Part shown: piece after piece, positions 5,263-40,125 of the stretch | Numbering within the stretch: the first letter of the stretch is position 1 | Layout: every line of letters starts with the position of its first letter | Assembly: GCF_037975245.1 (NCBI RefSeq) | Contig: NC_092572.1 | Span: forward strand, 14,328,269 to 14,392,268 | Length of the DNA: 64,000 nucleotides | Direction: 5' to 3' | Source: Apostichopus japonicus | Taxonomy: Eukaryota > Echinodermata > Holothuroidea > Aspidochirotida > Stichopodidae | Made by a program: the position numbers and the translations under genes | The notes under the pieces: model-generated | Seen by the model: only the letters and a program-made list of their open reading frames with translations | What the model was told of the DNA's origin: nothing | Database searches by the model: none

Positions 5263-5429
5263 TACACTCTAAAAACACCCTGGTGAAATTTCACCAGTTC
5301 CTGGTGAAATTTTCACCAGGAGTTGCGTTTATATGCTACCCTATATATCCTGGTGGTTTTCACCAAATTGCCTGGTGAATGAGATTTTAACAAAATCCCG
5401 GTAGATATAACCAGGAAAGCCTGGTTAAA

Positions 5430-6010
5430 TTTCGTGGTGAAATTTTACACTGTCCTGGTTAATATCAAGGGGTATTTCACCTCATTCCTGGTGATATTAA
5501 CCAACATTTCCTGGTTGATGCTAATACTGTCCTGGTTAATATCAATGGATATTCACCTCATTCCTGGTGATATTAACCAACATTTCCTGGTTGATGCTAA
5601 AACTATCCTGGTTAATATCATGAAATATTTCACCTTTTTCCTGGTCAAATTAACCAACATTTCCTGGTTGATGCTAATACTATCCTGGTTAATATCATGA
5701 AATATTTCACCTCTTTTCTGGTCAAATTTACCACTTTTCCTGGTTGGTGCTAATACTATCCTGGTTAATATCACAGAATGTTCCAACCCTTTCTGGTTAA
5801 ATTAAACAACATTTGCTGGTTGATGCTGATACTATCCTGGTTAATAACATGAAATATTTCACCTCTTTCCTGGTCAAATTTACAACTTTTCCTGGTTGGT
5901 GCTAGTACTATCCTGTTTAATATCACATAATGTTCCAACCCTTTCTGGTTAAATTAAACAACATTTCCTGGTTGATGTCACCATTATCCTGGTTAATATT
6001 AAACTGATTT
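5430..6010 (+). repeat. 76-bp subterminal tandem array of CCTGGT motifs
   Basis: The phrase TCCTGGTTGATGCTAATACT and variants recurs at about 5517, 5593, 5670, 5746, 5822, 5898 and 5973, a period of 75-77 bp. Each unit holds three CCTGGT boxes, so a box falls about every 25 bp. Copies are diverged by substitutions (TTGATG versus TTGGTG) but not in spacing. It lies immediately inside the left terminus of the large TIR element. Confidence 0.85.
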
Positions 6011-7296
6011 TCCGCCTCATTCCTGGTTAAATCACCCCTTTCCTTGTTAATACTATTGGGTATGCCACCTTATTCTCCATTTAAGTTGCAATGCATTCAA
6101 ATTGAGAAAAAGCAAACATAAATTATAAAACAACATCATCAATGTTACTGATAGCTAACTTTATTTGCAACTCCATTACTTTTGAATTTTGAGTACTAAG
6201 TGAACTTTCTCAATTTAGTTTAATTAAATCCCTCAAATATTTATACAATGAATTAATATAAGAAATGCAATACTGAAATCAAAATTTTGAGGACATATTT
6301 ACAGCATAACCATTGTCACATGCTGAAGCTCTGATTGCTCGAAATCAACTGTGAAATGTTCCACCTCTTACCAAGACCTTTGATCAGCACTTTTGCACAA
6401 GGATACAACTTGAAAATCACTTGAACAGTTCCAGTATAGAACAAGAAATGGACCCTATACCTGTCTCTTGAAAAACTTGATCAAAGCCTCTCTCCCTATA
6501 ACCTTTGTTACGACAAAATTCAGCCCTGTGTCATTAGCTTCTTTTCTTTTAAGGTATGCTGTATTAGCCCCAAATATGCTAGATATTCAAATGTCGTCAC
6601 CTCTGGTCAGAATTCTTAAACTGTTTTTTTTTTTACAACCTATGAGGAAATTTTCCCATTCAGTCATCTTGTGGGTTCCTTAAAAATGTCTGAGAACAAT
6701 TGGAGAGTAAAGACCTCTAGGAAGGTACTTTTTGAATTTAATTATTTACTTATTGGTAATTAATTAATATTTTTAATTTAATTACAATTATATTTTACCA
6801 CTTTGCACAGGCAAACCGAACATCTGCAAGACAATAAGAAGGCTTCCAACGATATCATTAATGTTTTAGTCATAAGCTCATTTTTGGACCTCACATACTT
6901 GTGCAAATTATTTTAACTCCAATAGAAATTGGTAAGTTAAGCTTATTATAATCACAAGAAAGATTAATTTGAAAAGCTTTTGATCTAACAGTTAAAGCAG
7001 CATTTTGCGTTGATTCTCGAGATTTTACAATACTAGGATACTATACCAATGACGTAAACTAAGCTAACTGTAAAGTTTCAACTCAAACTATTCCCGAAAA
7101 CTGCAAAAAATATGACATTTTCTGGCTCGTATTTTGAATCTTTGACTTCGATAGACTCCTCCCACTAAAAGGAACCTTGTGAATATGTATAACGGACAAG
7201 GTACTTTGAATAGCAAGGTAAACAGTAAACAAAAATCAGCTGAGGAGATGTACGTACCGCGCGAAGGGACAGTTACAGCATATCTCATTGCATACG

Positions 7297-8308
7297 ATGC
7301 CCCAAAAACCCAAGAAAATTCGTCGCTCCGCGGAAATAAAACCTGCTTTGCAGCAAGGATACACAAGAGAGAAAGTCATTGAACCAGCAAGAACTCGATC
7401 GGTACGTAACATTCTCTAGAACGATATTGTATCACTCTACTCGGTGTTACATAGGCTAGTTACTGTAGTACAACCAGACCTATTAGTGTGTGACTTACAT
7501 TGGTTAGGCCTGAATAACGTTATGTACACGCTGTGAATTGTGCACTAAAAGCAATGTAGCTATGAGTGTAGCGCAATGGGGGCCGTTAGTTCCGGATCCG
7601 TTAGTTCCCTCTCTTGAAAAACTTTAGTTTCCTCCTCTAACAACATGGGAGAAAATAACGTTTTTCAGGAGAGGAAAGTAACGTTTCTAATAAGGGAATG
7701 CAATGAGGCACACTGGCTAGGCCATGTGGAGATTAAGTAGTGCTTTGTAGCAAGTGCTTTGCAAAACTGAAGTAATTGTAATTGATTATTTAGGCGATTT
7801 TTATGATTATGTGTGAGTGTAGTAAGTAACCCCTTTTTTAGTTTCATTCAACAAGCATGTTAGTTTCCTAACCTGAATGCGATAGCTTACTACCTTGATG
7901 TAGGGGAGGAAAGTAACGTTTTTAGGAGAGGAAACTAGCATTTTCAGGGTAGGAAACTAACAGGTCGGGAAACTGAAACCTGGGGCAACATGCAATGTCT
8001 GCTGTTCTATAAATGTTATAGTAAAGTGTACAACCATTCCATGAAAGTGATAAATAGCATTTAGTCATATGTCACCAGTAAATGAGAGCAATACATTTTA
8101 GCAGCTGATCCCAAGACACGTTTATAATTTGTAACCTTTTGCTATCTTCTTAGCAACCATCTGGTGATGAAACACCAAGGAGGGCTGGCAGAAGTAGAGG
8201 TTGGATAGGCCTCAGGTAACACCAGACAATGGGACAACCCGGCTAACAGCAGCTGCAGCTAGGAGGCGGGTAGAAGAACGTCAGCAGGAGCGAATGGGAA
8301 AAATAAGG
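7297..8308 (+). pseudogene. left-end gene of nested Kolobok-like element, basic N-terminus
   Basis: Exon 1 is 7,297-7,401: 35 codons from ATG (MPQKPKKIRRSAEIKPALQQ, then REKVIEPARTRS) ending exactly at a GTACGT donor. Exon 2 is 8,154-8,308, preceded by a pyrimidine-rich stretch and TTAG and ending at GTACGT. It begins QPSGDETPRRAGRSRGW, meets a stop, and resumes in a shifted frame as TRLTAAAARRRVEERQQERM. Basic and arginine-rich, so plausibly nuclear or DNA-binding, but I do not recognise the family. The frameshift marks it as a relic. Later exons were not found. Confidence 0.45.
7577..7965. repeat. MITE-like inverted repeat, GTTAGTT(T/C)CC ends
   Basis: The start GTTAGTTCCCTCTCTTGAAA is an imperfect inverted copy of the end (reverse complement GTTAGTTTCCTACCCTGAAA). 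Both sides carry repeated GGAGAGGAAAGTAACGTTTTT-type boxes. A related block lies at 10,440-10,855 and ends in the same way. Non-coding. Confidence 0.5.
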
Positions 8309-8829
8309 GTACGTTTCAAAATGCATAATTGTGGGATTTGGTGCAAAGTAACAGCTGGTAATTCTTTAAACAGTTAAACTCAGTGTAATAACAGGATGGC
8401 TTTCTCAATTAAAGAATACTAGCAACATAAGTAGCTGGCTAGATTGTGATACTGAAAATAGTTATTTTACAGTGACATCAATTATCAAAGGGTTATATTT
8501 GCTAAACCATTTTGGAAGCAAAATACAGTTTGTCTGAAAGCAAGTTTTGAAAAACAGAGCACTTCGTAGTACTTGGTGTAGTGTTCAAACAATATATTTT
8601 ATGTCTATCTTCAAATATCACATGTATATTAAACACCCAAAGCAACACAATCAATCAGTGCTGTATATCATCAAAGCAATGATATATGTTACTTAGGCAA
8701 AGTAAATGATACTCTTTTTTCTTCACTTTTCTTCTTAGGCAATGGTTGGTAATGTAGATGTTCAACAGCCTCGACAACTGGTAATGCAAAGTGATTGAAA
8801 CCCATCCGGCACTCTTTTTTGATATATGT

Positions 8830-9420
8830 ACACTCAACATCTCAAGAAGTAAAAGTTGCTTGAATTCAAACTTGGTATATAGGTAGTCTTTGAAGAGTAG
8901 ATGATCCTTATTGTTTTGCATCGAGTTTAAAGGTCATTTGAGGTCAACATTTGAAATCTGTGTAAAAACAGTATCTCAAGAAGTGCTAGTTGGTTTGACA
9001 TCCAACTTGCTATGTAGATAGCACTTGGTAAGTAGATGAACTCTATTGTTTTTTCATGGAGGTTAAAGTCATTTTAGGTCAAGAGATGTCAACTCTTGAA
9101 AACTTATGAACAATATCAAGAAGTGAAAGTTGGTTGAACTTCATACTAGCTATATAGGTGTATTTGTTAACCATGAAGGTCATTTTGAGGACAATAGTTC
9201 ATATCCCAAGAAGTGAAAGTTGGTTTCAGGGCAAATGTTGATAACACTCGGTGGGTAGATAATCCCATTGTTATGCTTACGGCCATTAGTGCTAATGCCA
9301 TATCTCAAAAAGCGAAGTTGGTTAACTGTTACATTTTAATATGTAGCCCCTGGAGAGTAATTGATTGCTATTGTTTTTCATAGGTCAAAGTGATCTTGGG
9401 TCAAATATATTCTCTATTTC
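8830..9420 (+). repeat. imperfect minisatellite, about 100-140 bp units
   Basis: The phrase ATCTCAAGAAGTGAAAGTTG recurs with changes near 8838, 8973, 9112, 9193 and 9300. Each is followed by a 'stepping' text (TATGTAGATAG..., AGTAGATGA, ATTGTTTTTCATGG, AGGTCA). A single reverse-complement unit of the same family lies at about 38,560-38,670 inside another transposon. Confidence 0.7.
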
Positions 9421-10189
9421 CTTAACTTAATCATTCACTTGTATTCAGTTCTTTATTTCTTGATCAGTTGTATTCCTTGCCAAGTATAGACTTGTTTTCA
9501 CTATGATCTAAGATTATATACATGTTATTAGTATTACATTTTCTTTTTGTGAAAGACGTGATCATGGTTTTTCTCTATTTTTCTGTGTTACTTAACTTTA
9601 CCATTCAGGGTTTGAATAAACACAAAGTTTCTTTCACTGCTGTTCTTACTTCAATCTGAAAAATCTTCCAATTTAATGTGCTAATTTATTCTGAATATGG
9701 ACAGCTTCAATACACATAACAAGTTCAATTAAGTGCTCCTTTTTTATTGATGAATGTGCTTAGAATAAGTCTGCTGATCTTTACAACAACAAAAATTTAA
9801 AAAAAGGAATAGTTCTTCAAGTCCAAACCTGATTCCAAACTAGTACATGCATTATGTTTTATATCAATTGGCATGACTGATGACTATGAGAAAAGAAGCC
9901 CCCACCCCTACCACTTTAAATTACTTCAAAGTTGTAGGAGAGATGCAGGTTGCAATCACTCCAACCTCCCGCACCCCCAAATAATATTACTTGCTGAAGC
10001 GAGGAAGATTAATAGATTTGACTAATTACAAAGTAGAACTATGCCCCATGCTGCTCTGATGGCTTGCAACAAGCTGTGCAACAACTCCATCCCACCCCCA
10101 CTAAAAAAATAATTGATATCACTTGCTGATACAATGAAGACTTATATATTTGACTCATTACAACAGTAGAACTTGGTCCCATCCTGCTA

Positions 10190-11421
10190 TGATGGCTTGC
10201 AAGAAGCTGTAAAACTGATGGAGGTTGGCTCGGGCGAATTGTACCAGAGATGTGCCTTGGGTCATCCTCGCCAAGAACAACACGTCCTAGTTGAGAATTG
10301 TAATCATCTAGCCTCCGTCTAAATATGTCTTTCATCAGTTGCGGAATGTATTGCAACTATTCTTTTCCATAACAGGAACACAGGTCTATCTGCCTGCAGA
10401 CTGAGAAATTTCTTGTAAACCTGAAAGTAGAATCACAAAAATAAACTATCACTCAGGGAGGAAAGTACTGTTTCTCAGGGGAGGAATTCAAGCATCAAGA
10501 CATTTGGCTAGGCTACGTAGAAAGAGTTAGGTACTGAAGTAACTATAATTTTTGATTTACGAGAGAAAATAACGATTTCAATCAAAGAAACATTTTTCAA
10601 GGCAGGCAAATAGGCTAGGCTATATGGGAAGAGATATTTGTAGCAAAGGTAGAAAGGAAAAGAAATTCCTACAGTTATTCCACTTAGGCCCTAGGCCTAC
10701 TAAATTGATTCTTTCCACATAGCCTAGCCAATATGCTTTCATCAGCTTCCTCCCTGGAAAAACGATAATTTTCTCCCCATGATTGAGGAGGTACAGAGGT
10801 AAGAAACGTTTTTAGGGGAGGAAACAAACATTATTTAGGGCATGAAACTAACGGGAACCACCAGAACGCAGGCCTCATAATTTCGGCTACTGCATACGAA
10901 ACCACTGCCATCATAGCCCATGCCTTGTAAAGTCTAGTGTAAAGTATCTATGCGTCGGCGTGAACGTTAGTTAGCACTGTATCAAGAACAAAAACTTGTT
11001 GCAATTTGATAAGACTATGACTGTGAAGAAAGAGTAAGAAAAGTAAGAGCGTTTAGCCTAACTGGCCTTGGTTGTGCTAGTAAATAGTAGGCTAAGTACA
11101 CTATACTACTAGTACTAGTAGTACTATAGGCTTAGTATAGGCCCCTATACTGGCCTAGGCTAAACTAGATACTGTAGTAATAATAGTGAAGGCAGAGGTT
11201 CGGTCTCAGTTTCTCTCACCGATAATGAGAAGTAACGTTAAATCATGTAAACAAAAAATGTAACGAACAATTATATCCTTTGCTTACTTGTCGAGTAGAA
11301 GTCGAGCGACTTCTGAATCACTCTTCAGAAGTAAATTCCTCTTCACTTCGCTCCATCTTTCCCATTGATTCCCGAGAGGGACACGGTGTTGTGGTACCTT
11401 TTCTTCTGGGCTTTCCGCCAT
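10190..11421 (-). pseudogene. right-end gene of nested Kolobok-like element
   Basis: Exon 1 (11,421-11,288) starts with an ATG in good context and runs 44 codons: MAESPEEKVPQHRVPL, NQWERWSEVKRNLLLK, SDSEVARLLLD, ending at a GTAAGC donor in phase 2. Exon 2 starts at 10,420 after TTCTACTTTCAG. Joined in phase 2 it reads through one stop (TAG) into QYIPQLMKDIFRRRLDDYN, VVLGEDDPRHISGTIRPSQP and PPSVLQLLAS. The N-terminal 'WSEVKRNLLLKSDSEVARLLLD' type is one I associate with transposon-borne proteins in invertebrates, but I cannot name the family. The in-frame stop suggests a relic. Confidence 0.45.
11040..11240. promoter_or_regulatory. TAGGCCTA-rich block upstream of the 11,421 start
   Basis: Dense TAGGC/GCCTA words, many part of the palindrome TAGGCCTA. 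Similar blocks lie at 16.56-17.30, 19.77-20.23 and 39.47-39.62 kb, each near the first exon of a transposon gene. Here the block is in the first intron. Regulatory role is inference. Confidence 0.3.
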
Positions 11422-12229
11422 TTTCTCTTTTCAGGTGAAGTTAGGTTCTTCAAATTTTTTTTTTACCTTTTGAGCGCTTCTCCATTGTTTTATTATTTAG
11501 TCACTTCGTCACCAGGTTATAGTATTGTGTGTATGTAGCAATTAAACGACACAAAATACTTTGCTACTACGTACAGTAGGCTTACGTGCGTGTACACTTT
11601 ACTCACGGTAAAGACGCTGAGGGATTACCATGCCAATGACTGAGTCTATTTTAAGCTCCAAGTCATACATAAACATCTCTTCACTGATTGGTTGAATTTG
11701 AATAGGCGGTTTGTAGAGCTGCATGTGATAAATACTAATGTCGATTGTGTCAGGGAGACACAATTCTTAGAATCATGTAATATCCTTAAGTACTTGCTAA
11801 TTAACGTTCGATGTGGGGAAAAAAGTATGAGAAAGTCTTAGTTTTGTCTTTTGTGATCGTATTATGATAAAAACTCGATAGACACGAAAAAATTCTGGAC
11901 AAACGCAAAATGCTGCTTTAAGTAGTTAAAGAATATACCAAAGTGTCCTTGATCACGTTTTGCATACATCCACATGTCCGTCCGTGGACTCAGGAAGAAG
12001 CTTTTCCAAACAATTAACTAAACCGACCCCTAAATGACCTTTGACATAAAATTCCTGAGCACTTCCACATGTCTCTTCATCCCAGGCCATCTATGCAAGC
12101 TTCATTGAAGTTGTACCAACATGCATTATCAATTATGGAGAGAGATGAATTGAAATGCAAAACATCAGATTGTTTCTCATAAAAACAGCTACAATCACAT
12201 TGTTGATCATCCAAGCCGAAGACATCCTT

Positions 12230-12320
12230 CTACTACTGCAAAGCTGTGTTACTTGGTAGCCTCCCTCAATTTCTCATTTTTCACCTCTTCCAGTTTGCAC
12301 AAATCTAGGAAAGATATGAA
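12230..12320 (-). other. possible terminal exon remnant
   Basis: Minus-strand text FLDLCKLEEVKNEKLREATK followed by a stop, in the body of the large TIR element between its SAM exon and the nested element. It could be the end of the SAM gene or chance; no domain is recognised. Confidence 0.2.
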
Positions 12321-13459
12321 ACAATAAAAGTATTAATTGGTGTGTTAACGAACTAGAATGAAAAAGAAGATTAATTGCTTTCTTCAGTCTGCTTTTTTGT
12401 GCCAAACTTTTTGAAAACCTTATTTTTTATCAGTTTCAGTTGTAAAAAAGGAATAAATTGCATTAGCCTGTCTTTTATAGCAAGTGCAGTAACAGACTGT
12501 ATTGGCAGACAATAAAAGATTCTTCACGGTCGTTTCCTCGGATCCTTTTTGACAAACAAGAAAATGGAGATTTAAGTACACACAGACTGTGTTGGTGAAC
12601 TTGACTTACCAAATGCATAATAGGCGAAGGTCAAATGTGTAAATGTGCATTACTCGATAGTCGCTTGGAGCAAAAAGAGTCAATAGTGTTATTTACAGCA
12701 CATAGCCTAAAGTCAAACCAAAGGATGTGATACTGGTTCAACATTGTTTCTGTTGCACTTGTATGGTAGATGAAGGTAGGAGCACTGCCAGCTCTCTATC
12801 AAGCAATTTTCTCTTCGCTTTAGACAAATTTGTTGCCATGCTTTGCAAAGTCCTGTTGCTTCTGGCTGACATCTCAGTAAACAAATTGTTCAATTTCCTT
12901 AATTTCCTTACAGATCTAAACTGGTTCCACTATACCAATAATCAGTGGGCTATCAGCTAGCACAATTCCATGTAGATTAAACATAAATCTAAAAATAAAA
13001 CTCACTTGTTTTACATGTAGGAATGATTGCAAGGATGCACCCTTGCACCTTTCGGTGTTGATATTCCCCAAAACAACAGAGTGACAAGAGAAAATGCCAA
13101 GTTCATCTGCAACAAAAGATTTGTGAAATTGTTTAAATTTGATACAGTAAAATACCATTCACTGAAAGATTACATCTTCTCCCAACCCCCCCCCCCCCTC
13201 CCCATTTCCAAGATAGCCAAGGTATCTCACTGCTCTATTATAACAATTTTAACCAGAATGCAGAATGCATTGAGGTTTCGATGACTTCAATGCACTACAC
13301 TTCTGCTTGTTAGTATAACCAAAAGTAGCTGTTACAATAACACTATGGCATGCTAACACAGGTCAATCTACTGTACGTGGTTATACACACCTCCATCAAA
13401 AACAGTAGGTTTCTTGTACTCAATGTTATGAATCCACACACCAAGTATTACAAAACCAA

Positions 13460-14850
13460 ACCAAATCTCTAATAACTTCGCACATTAAGGTTGCAGAGGA
13501 GTCCAATGAACAACTTTGATTGCAATATGCCCACGAAACTTCAAAGAATCAACTTGCAAGAAGCTAATACAGGTCACTGGAGGTTAACCTGAGATCAAAG
13601 GTCACCCAAATGCAGGTCGACTTTTGTATTACAATAGCGTAACTCCCAACCTTGATGGTTTTGGTTCTTAAGTTATTGCAAAAATACTAGTTTTTGACCC
13701 ATAATTGACCTTTGTTGACCTTGGATCACATGATTGTTATGTTTTGAAACGATCCCTTACCCCATTCACAACTAGTCCACAAATATCAACCATGTCGGAC
13801 CCTGTCAATGGTAGTTTCACAAGTTATTGCCAAAAAACACATTTTGACCCATAATTGACCTTTGGTGACCTTGGATCACATCACGGTTATTTTAGAAAAT
13901 GTGCCCCTCCTTCATTCACAACTTGTCCTAATATACCAGCCATGTCAGACTTGGTGACTAGAAGTTGTTGCAAAAATTAGCATAAGCTGACAGTTTTTTG
14001 CACATAATCAACCTTGAATGACCTTTGATGACCTGATGGTTTGTATCAAAAATGTTTCTCTTGATGAGGTGCACTCTGTCGTAAAATTTGATTGGCCTAC
14101 AATGTACGCACATAATTTTAGTGCTAGAAAGGTATCAAAATTACCCTTTGGCCACTCATAACTTGAGAACTGGGTGTCCGATTGAAGCGGGAGTCGGTTT
14201 GCTATATAAAGCACAAAGAGCTCTATCATATATCAACAAATTGACACACTTTTTTTTTTTTTTTGATTTGTTTTGCCCCGTATCTCCTTAAATGCTCATA
14301 TTTTTCAAAATTTGACCTTTGACCTTGCGGTCAGATGTAGTTTGACACGCTGATTCAAAAAAGCAACATGACAAGCCTGTGCGACCATCCTAACTGTACT
14401 TATCAAAAAAAAAAATGACCTCTGATAACTTCGCACACGAAGGTCGCACAGGGGTCAACTATGGACCATTGTGATCGGAAGGTACCTTTGAGATCCGATT
14501 TTGGCCACGAAAATTCAAATAACCCAAAAAACTGATAAAGGTCACCAGAGGTCAACCTGAGGTCAAAGGTCACCTAGATGCGGGTCGATTACAATAGCGT
14601 AACTCCCAACCTTGACGGACATTTGGTTCTCAAGTTATTGCAAAAATACTACTTTTTACCCCTGATTGACCTTTGTTGACCTTGGATCACATGACCGTTA
14701 TGTTTTGAAATGACCCCTTACCCCATTCACAACTAGTCCCAAAATATCAACCATGTCGGACTCTGTCAATGGGAGTTATTGCTAGTTTTACTATTTTGGT
14801 TTTTGGCCTCTAACTGATCTTTGGTGACCTTCACAGGCACCCCAAAAAAT
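13460..14850. repeat. TGACC-rich dispersed repeat, two direct copies
   Basis: About 400 bp starting at 13,463 recur at about 14,420 with good similarity (for example AACTTCGCACA..., TACAATAGCGTAACTCCCAA, CCCCATTCACAACTAGTCC). Both are packed with TGACCTTTG(T/G)TGACC words. Two exact direct-repeat-1 nuclear-receptor consensus sites lie at 14,313-14,325 (TGACCTTTGACCT) and 14,560-14,572 (AGGTCAAAGGTCA). A similar text recurs near 18.1-18.3 kb. Confidence 0.7.
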
Positions 14851-14939
14851 CGGACACATCTGCTCAGTGTGGCACACATATACACCAAATATTAGATTGG
14901 TCCAAGCTTCCCTACTTGAGATACCGTGTTTACAAGCCA

Positions 14940-15185
14940 GGCGTCACACACGCACACACGCACACGCATGTTTGTATTACATTCAGACAGAGGACCACAT
15001 TGTATTTCCCATTGTTCAAATCCACGTACCCTAACCTTAACAATACCCCATACAATAGAATTCTTCCGAGGACGAGGTGATTCTTTAGAAATCACAACCG
15101 AGGACCTGAAATTCTTTTGTTCAAGTCCTCGGTCAGAATACAAAACAAACGCACACACACATACACACACGCACATATACACAGT
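14940..15185. repeat. CA microsatellites
   Basis: ACAC/GCAC runs at 14,945-14,970 and 15,152-15,182 generate spurious open frames on both strands. Confidence 0.8.
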
Positions 15186-16141
15186 GTCCGTCTGCATGAA
15201 TGCATAGGTTACGATTTCATCGAAACCAAAAAGGGCTGACACTTACTGAAGGCCACGCTCACACTTTCTGTTTATACCATGGAGAAATAAAACTACAAGT
15301 CAGAGACTTGCCATCTGCAATACAGAATGTAGGGATACGGTTTAGAAAATGGTACAATTATATGTTGTACAGTCCTGATTTGGCCTTTCTGTTTTGAAAT
15401 TTTTTGAAAAGATACATGCACTTTAATTTAACTGAATTTCACTATCACCAGAAAATTCATCTAATATATAATTGATGACTTCGCAGTGGCTTCAAGTTAT
15501 GCTGCCACAATTTGCGGAGAGTAAGAGATCAATCTTGTGCAAAGATAACTCGATATCATTTAACACTTTAATAGGAGGAGGTGTATGGAAGTATGATCGA
15601 GATAATGGTATATTGCAATGATAGCAGTGACCTCAATTGACCTCTACATGCATAACTTGTACATGGTATCAATCACCTTGCAACTCATTTTTGTGTTGGA
15701 CTTTTGACTTGATGGTATGAGTTGTAGTTGCTCAACTTGTGTATAGAGATATTTTACTTAATAGTAATACTCAACATTATTCAGTTGCAATTACATGGAA
15801 CAACACTTACCATCATAGGGCTAAGTAAACTGCAGCCTACAGATTTTTCATGTAGTTTGCAAGTACGGTAATGGAAGGCTCAAGGGTGTGTGTTTCTTGT
15901 ACTCTGTCATGGCTGTTAGCTCCTCTTGGGACAAATCTTCCATTTCTGCCAAACAAATTAACACATAACAGCAGAAAGAGTTATTTATTTCTGCACCTAA
16001 CAGAAGCCGGTCACCTTTGTTAGAAAATAGTTTCAAAGTAAAACAAAATCAATAACATTTTAACGGTCTTTGAGTTTTGTACCATCTTTAAATACTTATC
16101 AGTTTGTATCTATACTAAATTCTCTCCCATGAAAACTGTAT

Positions 16142-16385
16142 ATGTGTCCCTCTTTGAATGTTCAGAAAATCAATGCCATAAGGAAAACTGTTATGGGCAG
16201 TTCGGTTTATTGAGATTTACACCAATTTCATGATCTGCTGTGATATATAAGAAAACATAATATACCTTACTGTAAATGTGTCCCTTTTTTAATGTTTCAG
16301 AAAATCAATGTTATAAGGAGTCCCTGCTATGGGCAGTTCAGTTTATTGAGATTTACACCAATTCATGATCTGCTGTGCATATTAT
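16142..16385. repeat. 135-bp tandem duplication
   Basis: The phrase CAGAAAATCAATG...TATGGGCAGTTC, TTTATTGAGATTTACACCAA and CATGATCTGCTGTG occurs starting at 16,163 and again at 16,298, with a few substitutions. Confidence 0.85.
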
Positions 16386-17388
16386 GGAAATATAATCTGC
16401 CTAACTGACAGTGCTTCAAAACCTACCTCTGGGGAGTATAATTGTAGAATAAGAACAACATGAGATGTAATAAAACTCATTTCTGTTTTATAGTGTGAGG
16501 CTTATAACATTAGGAGGGCAAAGCTGTGACCTAGATAATGTGGTGTTTCATTTTTACATTTCTCATGTGTATAAAACTTATTTGTGACTAGGCCTAGGCT
16601 ATACCTATATCATTGCATGGGTAGGCTTAGCCTAATTTATTTCAGCCAAAATTTGTTTGAGTTTGACAAACAAGTACCCCCACCCCTAATTTATACATTG
16701 AAGTATAGTCTATATTGAGATTAACCATACACAAGTTTCTTGGTTTTTATAAATGTAAAGTACAAATTATCATTTTATAAATTAAATTTCACATTATCAA
16801 TTCATATAACCTAAATTTACTAATATAGCTTAACTGGTTATAGCCTAGCCTTGGTAAGTTTTTCACTCAGTGGTTAATCTAGGTCACTACAATAAATGCA
16901 GCACTTGCAATTTTAGGCAATCTCTTCTTTCACTGTCGGCAATCACTAATAGTCATTTCCCGAACATGTATACCACTAGTAGTATAGCCTAGGCCTAGTC
17001 TTTAATAGGGAAGGCAAGCTAGGCCTACAGGGTCTAAGACTAAAGTGTATTGACCCAAGAGCACAATTGTCTATGGATAATTTGACTAAAAATGTGTGGC
17101 TTTGATAAGGTGTGCCCTCAGAAGCTACCGTACACTACAATTACTCGAATTTGGTAGTAGTCACTAAAAGCGGCCGTTAATAAGGGAAGGTCTTGCTTTG
17201 AATATGACACAAATACGAGCCTATACTATCTCGTAGCCAGTACAGTGTATTTACTACATCAGGGAATCAATCTGGCCTAGCCTAACATCGTAAGCCTGAG
17301 TGCTAACATTAGGTTATATCAATATCGCGCGTACTGACTGTATCACAGAAATGACAAAATCGACATGATCCCGGTATTTCACTTTTAC

Positions 17389-17451
17389 ATTTAAACACTG
17401 ATTTAAGGTTACTCATACCCCATTGATATAGCAAGAATTTGACTTCGTCAT
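17389..17451 (-). pseudogene. SAM-domain exon of the CCTGGT-family element
   Basis: A 63-nt minus-strand exon lies between ATTATTGCAG and a GTAAAA donor, phase 1 at both ends. It reads DDEVKFLLYQWGMSNLKSVF then K. The pattern acidic-acidic-x-[VF]-x-x-[FV]-L-x-x-W-x-[ML]-x-x-[LM] is the first helix of a sterile alpha motif (SAM). It matches the equivalent exons at 20.40 kb and 39.80 kb, also about 0.3 kb inside the right terminus and on the minus strand. Downstream exons of this copy were not recovered, though a fragment EDLSQEELTAMTEYKKH lies at about 15.9 kb (minus). Function of the protein is unknown. Confidence 0.55.
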
Positions 17452-20403: not shown

Positions 20404-20499
20404 TGTAAGTTATAACACGTTCACTATATACGATCTACTCATGATGCATGCACATCGCGCAGAGTACCAGTATAGTAATGGCGCAAAAATGCTGTTTTT

Positions 20500-20685
20500 T
20501 GCACAACATTGGGCAAATCAAGCTTGTTTGCCCAACAGAAAGTAACAATAAACTACATCTTAATTTTTGCACAACAAAGTTTACCCATATCAGTTGTGTA
20601 ATTTCTTTTACTCAGTTGTTGGTTAATATTTACTCATATTGGGCAATGCTTTGTTTGCCCAACCAGTTTTGCCCAACAGTTTTTA
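20500..20685. repeat. TTGGGCAA subterminal motif cluster
   Basis: TTGGGCAAA, TTTGCCCAAC, TTGGGCAAT, TTTGCCCAACC and TTTTGCCCAAC occur in both orientations next to the element terminus, in the place occupied by CCTGGT or TGGGTCA boxes in the sister elements. Confidence 0.75.
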
Positions 20686-28388: not shown

Positions 28389-31300
28389 TTCACAGGAAAT
28401 TTTGATTTGATATCGTACTTGTGATCGGTGTTTTGTTTAGCAACTACTAGTGGTATGTGTACTTGTCTACTGTGTACGTGAATGGTTGGTATGTTCGGAG
28501 GATCGTAAGCAGCGACAACAAATGTGTTCATAACATGCGAATAGGAAAATTTTCGAATAAACAAAGTTTCAAACGCCAAAAAGGGTAAATTCATTCTCAA
28601 TTTTCGACTTGAAAAATCAAGTTTTAAACTGGCAGATTGGTTGATACATGTTCTAGAGAACATTCTTTGATGGATCCCAAAATTATAGGACTTTGAAATT
28701 TTCGTGTCACGGCCACTTTAACGAAATTTTAACCTGTTTATTTAGCGATGTAACACAGCGGATTGCAATTTATTCTTCTTTTTTTTTAAATTAAGCTTTG
28801 GATATTATTGGAACTCAACCGCTGGAACACAACAAGTGATTACTCCAAGAAGACCATAATCACCTTAGTGTGAAATATTTGTATTCCCGGTCCTCTTTTT
28901 CTTATTCCAATACATCATGAAAACGGCTCCAGGGCATGCTCGTATGATAAAAAACTGTTGTTTTCCCTATCCCATCAGCATATTGTTAATGGACAAAGGG
29001 AGTTCCTTTATATTTTTGTCATTTTCGGCTCTGGTTAGGCTACGGGAGATAATTTACTAACAAAATGGCTCCTTCAAAAACCATCATGAATGACGGATTG
29101 TAAAAACTTAGAAGTTTAACGATGATGCAATACGGAGAACTATTTTCGAAAACGAAAGAATGTACTTCCGCTCAAAAATCACGACCTAAAAGTAACAGGT
29201 GTGTTATTACCTTGTCACATATCTGAATGAAAATCTCTAGAGATATCTAGCAACTTATCTGGTGATGGTCTCAATGTTCTTGATGGTATATTGGTAAGAA
29301 AGTCAATGTTGGTAGTTACTAGTTGCAATGGTTAAAAAAGAACCATTATGAATACCGCCACCACATTTAAGTATATACAATTTTCGAAGCGCTTGATGTA
29401 CACGTGTCTGATTAAAACAACAGTATCACACCAGAACTGCTGTATTCAATATGAAATGATTCACCATGTGCCTATATTAATCGTTTTTGCATAACAGTAG
29501 TATTACACTAGAATTGATGTATTCAAGATGGACTGTATCACTATGTGCATATATTATACGTTGTTTTATAAAACAGTTTGAACATTTACATTTGATTTCT
29601 CATGATATATATTTCATGCAAAAGCGAACATGACATATCATAAATCTCAGATTGTTACTGGTTATGCAATAAATCATATATATTTAAGCAGTCATTCTCT
29701 TAAAATGTGTGCTTAATTTATGCAATGCAATGTGTGTAAAATATGCAATTCTTATGACTTTAGAACTCACGACGTTAACACTAACATTTCGATTACGGCA
29801 GAAAACTGTTACTTGTCCATATTTAACAAATGATAAAAGGGTAAGTTTAACGTTACAGGTTTTCATTGGCAATCAATGTAACATGTTACTACGTACACGC
29901 ACCTGAGATATAATTATCTGATTAGGGATATGGCGTATAATTTATTGTGCCGTGATGGTAAACATGAACTAATAAACATGTTCAGAACTACTGGTTTAAC
30001 ATTTTTTCTTCGTTTGTTTAAAGCTTAAAGCTAACCGATATTGTGAAGAACAAAAGCATAATACAAATAAATCAAGTTAACTATGATAATTTTAATAGCT
30101 TCTCTTGTGTACAAGAAAAAAATCTCTTAAGTTTTCAACTGGGATTACAATTCGTACAGATCAGTAGCTAACACATTTATAGGGACACATTCTCATCATA
30201 TCATATAAACAATTATTTATACTATAAATATCTTAACAACATGTTCTTTCTTTGAATATATGATATTTTGTACAACTTTGAAGAAAATTAGCTACGCATT
30301 GACAAATATTCGGCAACCCTTCTTGCCCCTGCCACCCTACCAACACACAACCTCCCACCTATCCCACCCTTCCACCGCTCCTACCATATGAAACCCTTCT
30401 AACCACTCCATAAATGAAATATTTAATTTAAATATTTAATTTTTCATTTATATGACGCATTTGCTATACACTGTGTATTTTCTAATACTCAACATGTCTT
30501 TAATCTGGGAAAATTTAAGGAAAAACCCATCAGTTAAAACAACAGGAAGTAGAGCCAGATATCGACAGCCCTTCATGAAACTAACGATGTACTAAATACA
30601 TGAGTGCCTGCTATAATGTCATAAACGCACTCAGTTAGTGTTTATTATAAATGTTATTAAAGCTACTAGCAATATAAAATTAAAAAAAAATATTGTTGCT
30701 TGACTAACGCATGAAACTTAAAACAAATTACTCAGTAACTTTAATATAAATAAACATTTTTTTAATTAAAAATATATATATACGTTTTTCATGTAATAAC
30801 CATACCATGTTGTAAATTAATCGTTTATGAAAACGATCTCACCCTTTAAAATATGATTTGCAATGATAAACAACAGCTATTATTTGAATGAATGATTCCA
30901 GAGAAGCAGTTTAACACTTTTAATAGACGGTAGCTTTATGACTCAATGTTACGGGCATACTTGTCGGGCCTTCACGGCATTACAGCAGTAAATAAAGATA
31001 TACTAGTTTAAAAGAATATTTTACTTCTTGCTGTTAAAAATTCAATGCCTTTAGCAATCCTGCAGACATTTTAGTTGATAAATCATATCCTCAGCAAGCA
31101 TTTGACACGTTTGTAAAAGATCGTAATTAGGTATCGGAACAAACTGGAATCAAATCAAGCAATTTCGTGTTTTATCAGATTATTTTTTTTCATTCTTTTA
31201 AATAGACGACCTTCAGTGTCTAGTAGTTGTGGTATCTACGCCTAACATACCCTCCTCTAATGTTCAATAAAGATCAAGTACAATCCACCTATCTATACGT

Positions 31301-32310: not shown

Positions 32311-32449
32311 GACTGGGTAGTCAGGAAGATTGGTTTAAAGCAGTTGGCTCTGTGTTGAAGATGACATAGATCTTCCCTCATTAGAATATACAAAATTTGA
32401 ATAAGGTAAAACAGCTATTTATTGTATTTTGTCGTTCATACATTTGTTA

Positions 32450-32570: not shown

Positions 32571-32579
32571 ATAGAAGCC

Positions 32580-35460
32580 AGACTAGTACTAGACTAGACA
32601 TGTCACAAAAGGGTAGTCTTTCATTAACATGAGAGTGGGCTGCCTCCCTGCATATTGTATTAATTGCTACAATTGATTGAGTTGTGCACTTCAGTGTCGG
32701 TGTACAGAATACAAATCTTTATTGTGAACAATAACGCAATTTGAAGTTGTTTATTTAGCGACGGAATGCAGCAGATTGCATTTTTGTTAAATGTTTAATT
32801 AAGCTTTGAGTTTTCTTGGAATCTCAAACACTGGTACACAACATGCAATTTCTCCAAGAAGAACAAAATCAACCTACTGTGAAATATTTGTCTTCCCCGT
32901 CCGCATCCGCGTACATGTCTTCCAATAAATCATCAAAACGGCTTCATGACCTGCTCATACGGTCAAAACTTTTGTTTTTCCCTATCCCATCAAAATAATG
33001 TAAATGGACAAAGATAATTCCTTGATATTTTCGCCATAACCGTATCTGGTGATGGTAAGGGAAAGTATCCCCTAACAAAGTGGTTCTTTGACAAATCATC
33101 ACGGCGGAAGAATGATAAAAACTTCAACTAAGAACTTCAACGATGTTGCAATATTGTTAATTATTTTCAATAGCAAAGAATGTACTTCCCATTTGGTTGA
33201 AATGTGTTTAGAATATCATTGGAAAAGAAATTGTTCTAAATGCTTTTCCTAGTACAGCTAACCGATTTCACATCATGCTTCTAACAGAGATTGATTTAAA
33301 GTATGTTACTTTTCATCTGAAAGCTAGGTTGGTGTATTGAATCGAAGCCAAGTTACACGTTTTTTTTCGAATATTAACGGTGGATAGTTGCATGAGCATG
33401 ACATAATTGTAACAGGTGTGTTGTAACCTTGTCAAATTACTAAAATAAAAACTGTGAAATATTGTCTTCCCCGTCCGCATCCGCGTACATGTCTTCCAAT
33501 AAATCATGACAGCTCTTCAGAAGAGATATATCGTGTCACACATCTAGTAATGGTCTAAATGGTCTTGATGATCTAATGGTAACAACGTCAATGTTGTTAA
33601 GTACTCGTTGTAATGGTGCTTTCTAAAACAAACAATATGAATACCGCCACCGTTTTTAAGGATATATAATTTTTAAATGCGCTAGATGTACACGTTACTG
33701 GTTAACTCCACAATATTACACCAGAACTGATGTATTCAAGATAGAATGATTCACTATGTGCATATATTATTCGTTGTTGCATAACTGTTGTATTCAATAT
33801 AGACCGTATCACTACGTGCATATACGTTGTTTATAACCTAGTTGGAAACTTTATATTTGATATTTCATGATAAATATTTCATGCAAAAGAGAACATGACA
33901 TAAAATAAATATCAGATTGTTACTAGTTACGAAATTGAACATACGATTTAAGCAAACATTTTCTTAAAATGTTTGTTTAAGTTTGTAAAATATGCAATTC
34001 TCATTACTTTAGAACTCACAACGTTAACACTTACATGTTAATTACGGCAGAAAACTGTTACTTGTCCATATTTAACAAATGTCAATCGGATAAGTTTAAC
34101 GTTACAGGTTATAATTACAATCAATATAACATGTTACTACGTACACGTACCTGAGATATAATTCTCTGATAGGATATGTCGTATAATATGTTGTTCAGAA
34201 CTACTGGTTTAACATTTTTGCGTCGCCTGTTTAATAGCTTAAAACTAACCGATATTGTAAAGTACAAAAGCATTATACAAATTAATCAAGTTAGCTATGA
34301 TTTTAGTAGCTTCTCTTATGTACAAAAAAAGAAATCTCTTCAGTTTAAAGTGGAATTACATTTCTTACAGATGAGTTTAGCAATACATTTATAGGGACAC
34401 ATTCTCATCATATGAAAAAAAAATTAATTATAAATATCTTAACAACATGTCTCTCTTTGAAGATATGATATTATGTACAACTTTTAAGAAAAGTAACTAC
34501 GCATTGACAAATATTTGGCAACCCGTCTACCTCTTCCCATCCTACCAACCCATACACCTTCCCATCTATCCCACCCTTCCACCACTCCTACCAAATAAAA
34601 CCCTTCTTACCCCTGAATAAATTTTTTATGTCAACACATTTTGTCATTTAGCTGACACATTATCGATACACTGTGTATTTTCTAGTACTCAACATGTCTG
34701 TAATCTGGAAAAAAATGTAAGGAAAATCCGTCAGTTAAAACAACAGGAAGTAGATCAAGATATCGACAGTACTTCCTGAAACTGACGATGTACTTAATAC
34801 ATGAGTGCCTGCCATAATGTCATAAACGCACTCAGTTAGTGGTTATTATTAAGGTTATTAAAGCTACTAGCAATATAAAAACAAAAAAAAATGTTGCTGC
34901 TTCACTAATGCATGAAACTGAAAACCAATTACTCAGTAACCTGAATATAATTAAACAATTGGCTCGTTACGATCCATATTAACTTTAAATAGAATATTTC
35001 CCAATGTAATACCCATATTATATGCTAATTAATCGTTTATGAAAACGATCTCACCCTATTAAAAATGATTTGTGATGATAAACAACAGCTATTATTGGAA
35101 TGAATGATTCCAGAGAAAAGGTTTGGCACTATAAATAGATGGTATCTTATGACTCAACGTAATGGGCATACTTGTTGGGCCTATCGCGGCATTACAGCAG
35201 TAAACTGAACAAATACTAGTATAGAAGAAAAATTCACTTGCTTTCAGCAATCGTGCAGACATTATAGTTGATAAATAATCACCTCAGCCAGCAATTCACA
35301 CGTTTGTAATAGAATGGAGATATACATGATTTTCTTACTACTTATGATTCCCTTTGTATATTCTAAATCTGGTATGAGTACAACATGTGATGTATGAGCT
35401 TACGTTTTCTCAAGAATATAGTTAGCTTTGAATAAATGTCAAATCGATAAAAGCTTATCG
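32580..35460 (+). repeat. tandem unit copy B
   Basis: Begins with the same block as copy A (CTTTCATTAAC, CACTTC.GTGTCGGTGTACAGAATA, GTTTATTTAGCGACGGAATG) and continues collinearly to its leader at 35,314. Relative to copies A and C it lacks about 1.1 kb directly upstream of the leader: CACACGTTTGTAATAGA joins straight to ATGGAG. An internal 40-bp phrase (33,461-33,507) repeats 32,886-32,930. Confidence 0.8.
35314..35371 (+). CDS. leader (signal-peptide) exon, copy B
   Basis: A 58-nt exon: ATG then MEIYMIFLLLMIPFVYSKS and one extra base, ending at a clean GTATGAGT donor in phase 1, the phase used by every leader and Ig exon in this window. A hydrophobic core of about 12 residues with small residues after it fits a secretory signal. 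The promoter-proximal 1.1 kb present in other copies is deleted. A good acceptor (TTTTTTCTGTTGCAG) occurs at 35,926, but its exon soon stops. It may be a relic or an alternative first exon for the Ig gene at 49.99 kb. Confidence 0.5.
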
Positions 35461-36462
35461 TCTTGTCAAGACTTTATTATGATACTAATGCAATAGAATG
35501 AGAAATGCTATGCATATTTCAATGACGATAAAAATAATTTCCTCACATAGCCTACTCAAACAATTATCGAAGCTTATCATTTTTTTTAATATAACTAAGG
35601 CATTTTATTTTAAATCAAGCACATGCATTAAATAATTTTAAAGGTTTCCAACTGGAACGGTGAAATCACATTTTGTAACATTAAGTACAAACTATGCTCC
35701 AGTTTATAAATTATCGATGAGTTATATGCTTAAACTACCACTGCCAAATGCCACGGCGACCCTTGGAACGTTATGGTGTATCGCAGAAATAGAATAATAA
35801 AGAATGCATTGTGTGTAGTATTTACAAAATGTAAATCCTTAAGGCCTTCAAATAATTTGTTCTTGCTATTTTGTTGATTGACTTCTTATTCTCCAATCAT
35901 TTCGTTATCCCTTTTTTCTGTTGCAGGGAAGTGGGTCTATTTGGTTTACCAATATAGAGTATAGAACTGTTACCGGCATCCTAAATTTATATCAAGAAAC
36001 GTTAATATCCGTCATAGTACAACGTAGTCCTACAAAAATGTTGAATCGCTTGCATCATTTTGAGCAACTGGAACTTATCTTCCGTATTTATCAGGTATAA
36101 TTTAATACATACATTGTTTAAAGATATCAGCCTTGCTCAATAAACAAATGGAAGCTCTATGATACTAGCATTTGTTTTATATCTTGAAGTTTGATATGAT
36201 ATGAAACTACCGTTGTCTCAAGTTACACACGCACTTATATTGCTCAAATGTTAGTTATACGTTTTTCAAATGAAATCATTGTTAATTGTCTCCAGAGGTG
36301 TCTGTTTAAATTATTAGACTACAGCGGCTTTGAAGCAGAATGACACCGTGTTAGCCAGATGGTTCAACAAATACCAGAAAACGAAAATGTTGTTACATAT
36401 CTGGGACTTTGCAAGAAGTAATGTGGGATATATCAACTTACTTCCTTACACTGTAAAAACAC

Positions 36463-36710
36463 TTGGGTCATTTTTTGACCCAAATTTGACCCAGCAACTT
36501 AGTGGAATCTCCACCAGCCCAGGTTTGGGTCAATTTGACCAAGGATCTGTGTCATTTGACATCTGACCTAAAACTGGGTTATTTTGACCCATACGCTACT
36601 TTGACCCATATGCTACTTTGACCCAGCTTTTGACCCAGTGGTTAGTGCAATCTCCACCAGCCCAGCAGATTGGGTCAAGAAAATTGACCACGTGAATGGG
36701 TCAAAGCTGA
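36463..36710. repeat. TGGGTCA/TGACCCA subterminal motif array
   Basis: Heptamer boxes in both orientations, some in near-palindromic pairs (TTGGGTCATTTTTTGACCCAA). The phrase AATCTCCACCAGCCCAG occurs twice between them (36,507 and 36,648). Confidence 0.85.
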
Positions 36711-38559
36711 ATTTACATTTGCAGTTGCAGGAAGTCTATAAAAGAAATGACATAAGACTTTGATTCCTAATGATAAATTAATTTATTCAAGTCACAAAGT
36801 GGTGTTACAATAAAGCATGCAATTTCTTCTATTTCACATATAATTATCGATATTCATTTTGTTTTATTCCAACTAGAACATCATAGTAACAGTAAAAATC
36901 AGAGTAATGTGATACCCATAAAACTAAACAAACAATGAACACAAGAACATAGGCTAAGGCTAATGTACCAACTGAGAATCATTGGAAACTAAGCAATGTT
37001 CCTTAAAATCCTGACATACTTAACTAACACAACTGATCATTTATTCATGTGCACAAACTTTAGTTCACTGAGGAATATGTTCTGCGCTACTTGAAAGACT
37101 TTAATTGTTGATCACACAGCTAGGTTTGCTGCAGTGTTCGTAATATTAAGTTAATCAAGACTGGAGCATGCACTCACTCTCTACTTGTATCCTTAGTCAC
37201 TGTAGTAATTTGATTATTAGCTAGCATTTCTAATTGTTTTTAAAGAATATAAATAAACAACATTCCATAGTTATCAATTGTATAAATGTTAGGTATACAA
37301 AGAAGACATGTAGTACATCAATGGTGGCTGTAAGAAATCAAATATTTTGGAAAGCTCAATGTTTGGTGGGGGCTTTGTCATGGTCAAAAGTCAAAGACAA
37401 TATCAAACATATTTTGCAGTGGGTTGGTGGGGCAAGACAAACCCTATGGCCAGCTGCCAATTAATAAAATCTTGCAAGCATATCCGAAAGGTGATAATTT
37501 CCTCAGTAGTTCTTGTACCAAAACAGCATTAGATTTGAATGAGGAAAAGCTGTTTATAACATACAGTACAAGACTTATAATCACTGAAAAGTCATCAATA
37601 AATGGAAACACTGTGAATAAATATTTTTGCACCACCAATATGTTACAATATGTTTAAATTTTCAGTTGCTTAGGCAAAAAATGTACATCAGTCATGCTTT
37701 TGGCTAGTTGTGCATGTATGATGTATGGTGGAACACTAGTTTTGCCCCATTGTTTGTGAGGCAGTTCTGCTTCTTTAGTCACTCTAAACTTAACAATAAC
37801 AAATACCAATGAAACTTAAAACTTGTTCAAGGTAATATAACATGCAAACATAAATAGCAAACAACTTTGTCACATTATGTAAATTAAAAAACCTCATGTA
37901 ATCATCCCATCATGTTAATGACCATGAACTAAGTGTTAACCTAATGTTGCACTGCCCAAGGTTTACAGGAGATATGTTCATATCCCTTATATGTGTTTTG
38001 AGAAAATTATACGATAAAAGGTTACAATGTATAAAAAACCAAATAAATCATATTAAACACTACTTTTGACAAAGTTGTTTACATACCTTTTTTTTCTCTT
38101 ACTGACTACTTAAAAAAGCATGTAGGCTTCTTACTGAAGGGGATGTCGAAACCTTTCCTTTCCCTTCACTAACCTTAATGAGGAATTTGTGTATAAATTC
38201 CCAGGTTGTTTGACACTGGCAGGGGTAGGCTATGTCAAACAAGTACAATGATTTGAAAGAAATATCAAAAGCTGCAATCAAATATGTTGCTGGCAGAGCA
38301 ACCCCTTCGATGATCACAAATGACTGAGTCGGATACCTTCTATCACCAAATGCAAGGACGAATGGCTGCTTCCGGGTTCTATCTTGCTTAAGCTCATCTT
38401 CCATGAATTGAGGAAGATTGGTCCCAACCTTTGGAAGAAAGAAAATAAATTGCTGCTTTCAATGTACACTTAATTCTGTTGTCACTAATTTAAATAATTA
38501 GCAAATCCTTTTCACTTGAATCATTACCATAGCAGATTTAAGATTCTGTTGACCTCAAA

Positions 38560-38670
38560 TGATCTTGGACCTCCATGAAAAAATAGAGGGATCATCTACT
38601 CACAGAGGGCTACCTACATACTAAGTTTAAGGTTCAAGCAACTTAACTTGGCACCTGACTGTTATAAGTG
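38560..38670 (-). repeat. single minisatellite unit (shared with 8.8-9.4 kb)
   Basis: The reverse complement reads AAGTTGCTTGAACCTTAAAC, then TATGTAGGTAGCCCTCTG.GAGTAGATGATCCC and TTTTTTCATGGAGGTCCAAG, matching the array unit inside the nested Kolobok-like element. Confidence 0.65.
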
Positions 38671-39469
38671 AAAAATCATCATGACATTTTATGCGATTTA
38701 ATTATATACCAGTAGGAATGACTGAGGATGTAGAAATATCAGTTACTTAGCCTACACAGTTAAAAGAAATTGACCTATATCCCTTACTGAGTATATTGTA
38801 TGTAGACTGTTCAAGATAATGGTATTAGTACCTTTTGGATCTGTTTTTATGTTGAACTTTACAGGTGTAGGCTTCTTTACTTCTTTCGGTGTTGCTTCTT
38901 GTTTCTTAAAGGCATGGGATCGTTTTCGGGCAATCTTTCCTCAAGATAGTCTGTTGCATAGCCTGTAGCAGGATGTTTCCCATGGGCTTTTGGGTACCAT
39001 GCTACCTATAGTCCACAGATAAAAATAGGACATATATAGTTAACTTCAATTGTTCAATTACACCGACTATAGTCTTGGCAAAGACTGTTTGTTGGAGTAT
39101 ATCATATTTTACTGCAGTGGCATAACCAGTAGGGGAAAAGCCCCCAATTGGTCACCCCCATCCACCCAAATCGACATACAAGTAAATTAGTAAGACAGAA
39201 ATGATGAACCATTTTACATCTTGTCCACCCTTAAATACAGGAATTTTATCCCTCCCCTTACACCCCTTCCCCATATCTTGTCCCCCTCCCATTGCACAGA
39301 CTCCTTGCTACCCTTCAGCTCTCCCCCACCCCCACTAAAAAGTCTGATTATACTACTGTTTTACTACATTTAACAGCACACTGTTAACTCTCTGTTCAGC
39401 AAGATAACTATTAACAAGTAACATTATACTAGTCTTAGCCTCTAACGTTATATTTAGTTAAACTTACGT

Positions 39470-39720
39470 AGTGAGGTTAGGCCTATGCTTTATCAAAGAC
39501 CAAACGTTAGGTCTAACATTACAGCTATCTATGTATCAGTATCACTATCACTGTATCAGGGTATTTATGGGCTTGTCTGAACCACGGCGCTCGCAGCACT
39601 AATAACATGTTACTTAGGCCTAGCCTATCATCATATCTACAATGGCATACTATAATATAGTATTTAACTAATTAACGTTGCGAGCGCCTGTGGCCTGAAC
39701 TAGTCAGCATACTTTGGCGT
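39470..39720. promoter_or_regulatory. TAGGCCTA-rich block near the SAM exon
   Basis: GTTAGGCCTATG, GTTAGGTCTAAC and TTAGGCCTAGCCTA within 150 bp, just downstream (gene sense) of the first exon, as in the two sister elements. Function inferred only from recurrence. Confidence 0.25.
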
Positions 39721-40125
39721 ATATTTACCTTTGAATATTGGTATTTACATTGGCAAACCCCAGTCATCAAGGATGGAACTAACAAACGTGTCCATTTTCA
39801 GAGCCCATCAAAGTTTTTGATTCAACTAAGACTGCCTTCTTGGTCCTGAATTTACGTATGGTTTGTAGATTTGTGTGACGGTGTTCAGCTGTTGTCTACG
39901 AAAGGCGTCATGCAAAAACGCTGATAGTGGTCACATGACATAACTTATCCAATGAGAAAAGTCTTTGAGAATGACCCAGTGCAAAAAGTCAAACTTTCAT
40001 CGAGCTATTTCACAATTTCAAACAATCTTGCGTAATAACTCAACCAATACGACCCATTTCTGGGTACAGTATGGCTGACTCAGCAGATGGGTCACACAAA
40101 ATGACCCAGGTGTTTTTACAGTGTA

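Follow-up and report, generated by a model that had tools for sequence, protein, structure and literature searches.

The transposase (TNPD) open reading frames (ORFs) of the plant transposon En/Spm sit in an intron of tnpA, and this element also has subterminal repeats and deletion derivatives. RAG, built on the antibody-gene recombinase RAG1, is a transposase-partner pair, and the target duplication of Transib and RAG is 5 bp. In En/Spm both TNPA and TNPD are needed, and they derive from one alternatively spliced unit (PMC1636069). Plant CACTA elements duplicate 3 bp of target, and their ORF2 supports excision and transposition in some families (PMC4158355). The CACTA/EnSpm-Mirage-Chapaev-Transib (CMCT) clade is defined by 5'-CA..TG-3' termini and a target duplication of 2-5 bp (PMC12730594). 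We analysed a 64,000-nucleotide stretch of the sea cucumber Apostichopus japonicus (the window; NC_092572.1, positions 14,328,269 to 14,392,268 of the forward strand) that contains three element families with CACT(C/G)TAAAAAC ends and a start exon of a SAM-domain gene near one end. These three repeats read as crippled or broken copies of a transposon group with two genes, a transposase and the SAM gene. The group is a two-gene member of the CMCT clade that presumably moves by cut-and-paste, and that such a two-gene transposon exists can be stated with high confidence. Genome-wide scans refer to the source genome of 671.6 Mb in 35 contigs.

Four two-gene elements of 10.8-13.3 kb were read end to end, and a fifth, of family B, is longer. 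Both genes lie inside matched ends in family E (12,125 bp, contig C8), in family G (10,785 bp, contig C7), in a long relative of the window's element A (the A parent, 12,579 bp) and in family J (~13.35 kb). The two-gene elements start with CACT(C/G)T(T)AAAA. They are flanked by duplications of 2 bp, which are TA in E and G. The ends of the J type are CACTGTTAAAA, with TA/TA flanks in one copy and TG/TG in another. E, G and the A parent have the same order of parts: left end, SAM exons 1 and 2, transposase ORF, later SAM-gene exons, C-terminal exon and a repeat-rich right end. The transposase ORF, a single exon of 840 aa in E, is nested on the same strand within the second intron of the SAM gene. 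Its ATG lies 40-52 bp past the GT donor of exon 2 in all three, and the GT donors and AG acceptors fit the nested order. In B, SAM exon 2 precedes the transposase by ~640 bp; the left end and exon 1 of this element were not found, even with 5 kb more sequence read. Family C was apparently derived from G by deletion, and its right end was not found within the 18 kb read. Copying has been recent: over 6.5-7.4 kb, identity is 99.8% among copies of E and 99.9% among those of B, and given this identity active elements may exist.

The subterminal regions of these elements carry family-specific repeat arrays that are much rarer inside the elements and denser at the 3' side. All 13 TGACCCA copies of element A and 11 of the 16 GGGTCA copies of E fall in the terminal 600 bp, as do 17 of 24 CCTGGT copies in G and 24 of 30 in the window element W1. 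For GGTTCAA in B, whose left end was not read, 11 of 13 copies are in the last 600 bp.

Searched with a 213-aa core of the transposase ORF of E, the genome gives 151 matches (from the best 150 of 261 candidates scored), many of them in open frames of 800-950 aa. In an alignment of 20 of the 22 frames examined (a partial E frame and locus L033 were left out), D304, D398, C418, C421, H625, H629 and E649 are invariant in all 20 sequences. These residues form a D-D-C(2)C-H(3)H-E motif, and the order given for the CMCT clade is the same, D-D-C(2)C-H(3-4)H-E (PMC12730594). The predicted transposase structure (predicted local distance difference test, pLDDT, 85.1; predicted template modelling score 0.77) has 46 Foldseek matches at E <= 0.001, every one of them RAG1, BbRAGL or HzTransib, with RAG1 first (best E 4.6e-10). 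VIA-align Z scores are 20.5 for RAG1 over 462 residues, 17.4 for BbRAGL and 16.0 for HzTransib, and the best match outside this set is the P element (11.2). Pfam Transposase_21 is detected at E <= 0.1 in nine of the 20 members (best 1.9e-5), with the E transposase at 14.5 bits against a curated cut-off of 28.6. For the transposase, a codon model fitted in IQ-TREE (MG+F3X4 with kappa set to 1; 18 of 20 rows and 793 codons, leaving out L022 and L038) gives a final omega of 0.086 from a first estimate of 0.093. No relative was found in the viral contigs scanned with the transposase alignment, and an NCBIfam search of three proteins returned nothing useful. As a separate observation, the predicted C-terminal domain of the transposase (L017:996-3491, residues 693-825) resembles the BAH domains of BAHCC1, DNMT1 and ZMET2 (Z ~9; Foldseek E 0.019); such a domain could direct insertion to marked chromatin.

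The features that place this group in the CMCT clade are a D-D-E triad with C(2)C and H(3-4)H, CA..TG termini, a 2-bp duplication and a predicted fold of the RAG1/Transib type. The termini are CACT...AGTG in A, E, G, the window element W2, J and the A parent. Two EnSpm/CACTA features are absent, the CACTA pentamer (here CACTC or CACTG) and the 3-bp duplication (here 2 bp), and we therefore do not claim CACTA proper. Nor is the 5-bp duplication of Transib and RAG proper present, since it is 2 bp here. Plant CACTA/En-Spm elements are alike in their CAC...GTG ends, second protein, subterminal repeats, deletion derivatives and DDE enzyme, which may in both be of the Transposase_21 type, whereas CACT(C/G)T ends, the 2-bp duplication, a SAM-domain partner and a predicted BAH-like transposase C-terminus distinguish the present group. 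The nesting of the transposase ORF seen here also resembles the position of the TNPD ORFs in En/Spm. RAG1/RAG2, ProtoRAG (BbRAGL) and Transib share the predicted transposase fold over ~460 residues, and RAG also the pairing of a transposase with a partner, but the 2-bp duplication, an identity to RAG1 of 11-13% and an N-terminal C2H2-type finger in the transposase set these elements apart from them. No likeness of the SAM partner to RAG2 was seen, in work that included no search aimed at RAG2. The EnSpm-like ESTA elements and other CMCT lineages have the CMCT motif, a TA-type 2-bp duplication and extra genes, although ESTA is fungal and its extra gene is a TET/JBP dioxygenase (PMC12730594). 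SmTRC1 and related animal CACTA-like elements are alike in host kingdom, a 2-bp direct repeat and perhaps Transposase_21, but SmTRC1 has CCC termini and alternatively spliced transcripts, and the text covered does not mention a SAM partner (PMC1636069). Among the papers listed by a literature search, judged by title or start of abstract and without Repbase Reports, none links a SAM or SAMD3 gene to an EnSpm/CACTA transposon. The kind of transposon is known, that of the CACTA/EnSpm-Transib-like clade; the SAM partner and the nested layout do not occur among those listed papers.

SAM exons 1 and 2, when joined, score 26 bits in E and 30 bits in G against the Pfam SAM_1 cut-off of 23. At the other end of the SAM gene is a module probably like that of SAMD3-like animal genes, which are annotated as host genes and which we take to combine a SAM domain with a C-terminal module of the same kind. 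The initial annotation had recognized this module in the window, and it is real: the exon at 38102-38428(-) has 150 genome matches from the best 150 of 585 candidates scored. Between families the module is 29-55% identical to that of B, and the same codon model, applied to ten of 20 rows chosen as one per family (100 codons), gives a final omega of 0.082 from a first estimate of 0.133. The SAM gene thus looks constrained between families, and the codon model is clearer on this than pairwise counts are. The SAM protein pieces that were searched matched no known enzyme family or fold.

The two genes recur together across the genome. We compared 140 C-terminal clusters (150 rows) and 60 clusters of the J-type exon (108 matches) with 147 transposase loci (148 rows). 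A same-strand transposase lies upstream within 16 kb of 20 of the 140 C-terminal loci and 39 of the 60 J-exon loci, at least 59 of 200 in total, against a mean of 0.57 and a maximum of five in 500 shifted sets. Among the other C-terminal loci, one is upstream of a transposase and two are on the opposite strand. This arrangement bears out the initial annotation in assigning the SAM gene to a transposon group, and it identifies the gene as a recurrent second transposon gene. Many SAM-domain genes of this kind in the source genome are transposon parts, which implies that much of a large multicopy gene family comes from transposons, although its members could pass as host genes.

In the window, the exact terminal motif CACTSTAAAAAC occurs at 5265(+), 20690(-), 36449(+) and 40123(-), in agreement with the shared termini first proposed, and the right end placed near 17,757 matches with one mismatch at 17747-17758(-). 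At no more than one mismatch there are six matches in the window versus a shuffle mean of 1.42, a count reached in one of 100 shuffles. Genome-wide there are 950 matches (450+500) versus 535 for a reversed-pattern control. Among 100 listed occurrences of the motif, on contigs C1-C3 and part of C4, nine inward pairs and no outward pairs are spaced at 16 kb or less; a C-terminal module lies inside five of the nine, a transposase inside one and neither inside three. The check proposed in the initial annotation, to count the inverted pairs that enclose a SAMD3-like gene, thus gives five of nine. In the same region a correctly oriented end is present within 16 kb of ten of 16 C-terminal matches, four of 17 transposase matches and 1.8% of random points. 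Ends with one altered base would escape this search, which bears on the six C-terminal matches that lack an oriented end.

The flanking duplication is 2 bp and may be TA, CA or TG, with TA the commonest but not invariable. Both ends were read in 13 copies, and in 12 of these the flanks are equal: five copies of family A, two of J, and E, G, the A parent, L081 and L082. This count leaves out the window copy of W1, which has lost its last base, and B and C, with one end each. A TA duplication, as the initial annotation had it, is accurate as to the length and often as to the bases, but the five copies of family A that were read have TA, TA, CA, TA and CA.

Element A (36449-40123, minus strand) is a non-autonomous element of 3,675 bp with TA flanks at 36447-36448 and 40124-40125 and a terminal inverted repeat of 31 nt that is 94% complementary. 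Other family A copies are also ~3.7 kb. The A parent, at C15:26455906-26468484, shares these ends and is likewise flanked by TA. Three blocks of the window copy align with it at 88-95% identity; the two blocks missing between them contain, in the A parent, the transposase, SAM exon 2 and one middle exon. Window A is an internal-deletion derivative from which the transposase, SAM exon 2 and part of the middle exons have been lost. SAM exon 1 (39729-39795, minus strand; core peptide 39754-39792) has an in-frame stop in all five A copies read, which is absent from the A parent, so window A is not the complete element that it had been taken for. Also retained are a middle exon remnant of the SAM gene (38880-39005, minus strand) and the C-terminal exon noted above. 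The subterminal array on the gene's 3' side (36449-37048, no strand) holds ten of the 13 TGACCCA copies, and the other three are in the terminal 600 bp at the opposite end. In two A copies (C15:13882252-13882856 and C8:32329891-32330283), partial C-terminal exons ~210 bp apart lie downstream of the full exon, a pattern that suggests tandem duplication inside the elements.

All three window elements have the minus-strand SAM start exon near the right end that was first reported, with peptide matches at 17414-17452 in W1, 20357-20395 in W2 and 39754-39792 in A. They also show no recognizable transposase, as was first reported: a tblastn search of window positions 1-45000 with the E transposase gave no match at E <= 0.5. 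Since the window elements show no transposase, an enzyme supplied in trans is likely. Of the two sources of mobility that had been offered, the SAM protein itself or a protein acting in trans, it is the second that seems to stand. Complete copies do hold a recognized transposase, as had been allowed for, but the SAM gene is not incidental to them, for it is recurrent and looks constrained.

Several observations weigh against the reading of a two-gene group with a SAM partner. Splicing and expression of both genes are read from sequence. Nesting is not a general feature, as the SAM-like exon of the I and J types comes after the transposase. This exon is also below Pfam cut-offs (no match in J; SAM_TNK at 15.4 versus 25 bits in I), is unmatched to the E/G SAM profile (probability 1.8) and, in J, returns no SAM domain from a PDB search. 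By profile search the C-terminal module is missing from the H stretch (E <= 0.1) and from the I stretch, which ends early, so the SAM partner may not be universal in the group. No listed transposase is within 16 kb of 117 of the 140 C-terminal loci or of 21 of the 60 J-exon loci, and a second-gene module accompanies at least 59 of the 147 transposase loci among the matches listed. Fifty of the 150 C-terminal rows have an identity of 75% or more to the window A module and are probably non-autonomous A copies. The A parent's own transposase frame is broken by an internal stop, and L085 is the sole copy of the 13 with unequal flanks (TA/TG). A sequence profile of the transposase searched against the PDB gives zinc fingers first and no RAG1, so it is the predicted fold that ties the transposase to RAG1. 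The C-terminal module is poorly modelled (pLDDT 70.7) and matches no fold at E <= 0.001, which leaves DNA binding by the SAM protein hypothetical. Pairwise dN/dS medians, taken with synonymous sites near saturation, are 0.55 for the C-terminal module (34 pairs) and 0.73 for the transposase (99 pairs), and three close pairs are at 1.6-3.0. Among 20 copies of family A the C-terminal exon shows no sign of selection and seems to evolve neutrally (pooled pN/pS 0.96), as expected for passengers; its frame is open in 19 of the 20 copies, which are high-scoring rows and so biased toward openness.

The H-type unit is of separate note. In L020 (3712-4071(+) and 7557-7916(+)) an 872-aa transposase is followed by an unrelated-looking ORF at the position where I and J have the SAM-like exon, and units of this type may truly differ in their second gene. 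Assignment of this ORF to a PB1/ubiquitin-type domain was considered and is unsupported by Pfam and PDB searches.

On balance we favor, as a reasonably probable account, a two-gene transposon group in which the SAM protein is the partner of the transposase and the window copies are moved in trans. The transposase would bind the ends, cut and insert by a reaction of the RAG1/Transib type. The SAM protein would be its partner, like plant TNPA/ORF2 or, loosely, RAG2. It might coat the family-specific subterminal repeats and join the two ends, with the SAM domain supplying self-association, and the window copies would be mobilized by proteins made elsewhere. By analogy with those partners, we propose the end-binding role tentatively, at somewhat less than even chances. 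If the pairing is of this kind, it would join RAG1/RAG2 and TNPD/TNPA as a third pair of transposase and partner, and the second gene of CACTA elements, itself poorly understood, would have a counterpart in animals. A fuller version of this scheme is speculative: the SAM partner may polymerize on the subterminal arrays and zip the ends together, and may have evolved independently of RAG2 and TNPA for a RAG1-fold transposase with a BAH-like domain; the transposase gene may be nested in the intron of this partner as a means of controlling, through splicing, how much of each protein is made; and the many animal genes annotated as SAMD3-like would be this partner gene, some possibly domesticated.

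The SAM protein could instead serve the element by acting on chromatin or against silencing, outside the end complex, a rather unlikely alternative but the strongest one. Fungal transposons of the CMCT clade do carry epigenetic partners of the TET/JBP kind (PMC12730594), TNPA acts on a methylated promoter (PMC1636069), and the BAH-like transposase C-terminus is a chromatin-reader fold (Z ~9, with a Foldseek E of only 0.019). However, the SAM protein pieces searched have no known enzyme family or fold, and constraint on the SAM gene is near that on the transposase, which a core role fits at least as well. It is improbable that alternative splicing joins the SAM exons to the transposase and makes SAM chiefly a transposase domain. 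The short distance from the exon-2 donor to the transposase ATG in E, G and the A parent (40-52 bp) would permit this, as would an AG directly before that ATG and in frame in E, but the acceptor-like site in G meets a stop at once, the B transposase starts ~640 bp past the exon-2 stretch, the C-terminal exon retains its own constraint, and in I and J the SAM-like exon comes after the transposase.

Capture of a host gene as cargo without a role in mobility is more improbable still. Pieces kept in non-autonomous copies do evolve neutrally, and the profile search found no C-terminal module in H-type units, yet the same order and strand recur at 59 loci in several families, omega is low between families that are 29-55% identical to B, and E, G and the A parent have the nested layout in common. 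That the SAM protein is itself the mobility enzyme can be given almost no weight: the window copies show no other recognized gene, but the longer copies contain a transposase. A nuclease role for this protein was rejected on the same ground and because the C-terminal module, in its weak model, has no fold match at E <= 0.001. The preferred reading remains that of a SAM partner to the transposase.

The first of the other two window elements, W1 (5265-17757, minus strand), is a non-autonomous element of a 5.6-kb family that lacks its last terminal base. It had been described as one continuous element, but a 5,631-bp relative on C7 aligns to window positions 5314-6995, 11950-13252 and 15229-17757. 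Because this relative skips 6996-11949 and 13253-15228, both stretches look like inserts, and the spacing of matches is short in other W1-family copies too. An autonomous 12.5-kb W1 was rejected in view of these apparent inserts and the missing tblastn match to the E transposase at E <= 0.5. W2 (17759-20690, minus strand) begins abruptly against the right end of W1 and is a truncated copy of a 4.7-5.0-kb family. Two fuller copies (L081 3094-7822, 4.7 kb; L082 2853-7843, 5.0 kb) both have TA flanks, and their left 1.66 kb is absent from window W2. The end-sequence searches scored the best 40 of 98 candidates for W1 and the best 40 of 55 for W2. A clean insertion of W1 into W2 was considered and rejected, as the left part of W2 is not on the left side of W1 and there is no empty-site proof.

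Some further repeats occur in and near these elements. The left subterminal region of W1 (window 5429-6017) is a 76-bp tandem array rich in CCTGGT. Within the second of the apparent W1 inserts (13253-15228), repeats of ~150 bp rich in TTGACCTT lie at 13666-14831; a further nested element may have them as its end array. Finally, 28905-31000 and 32920-35150, at a distance of ~4.0-4.3 kb from each other, share several blocks of 74-89% identity, a likeness that looks like tandem duplication of a ~4.2-kb unit.

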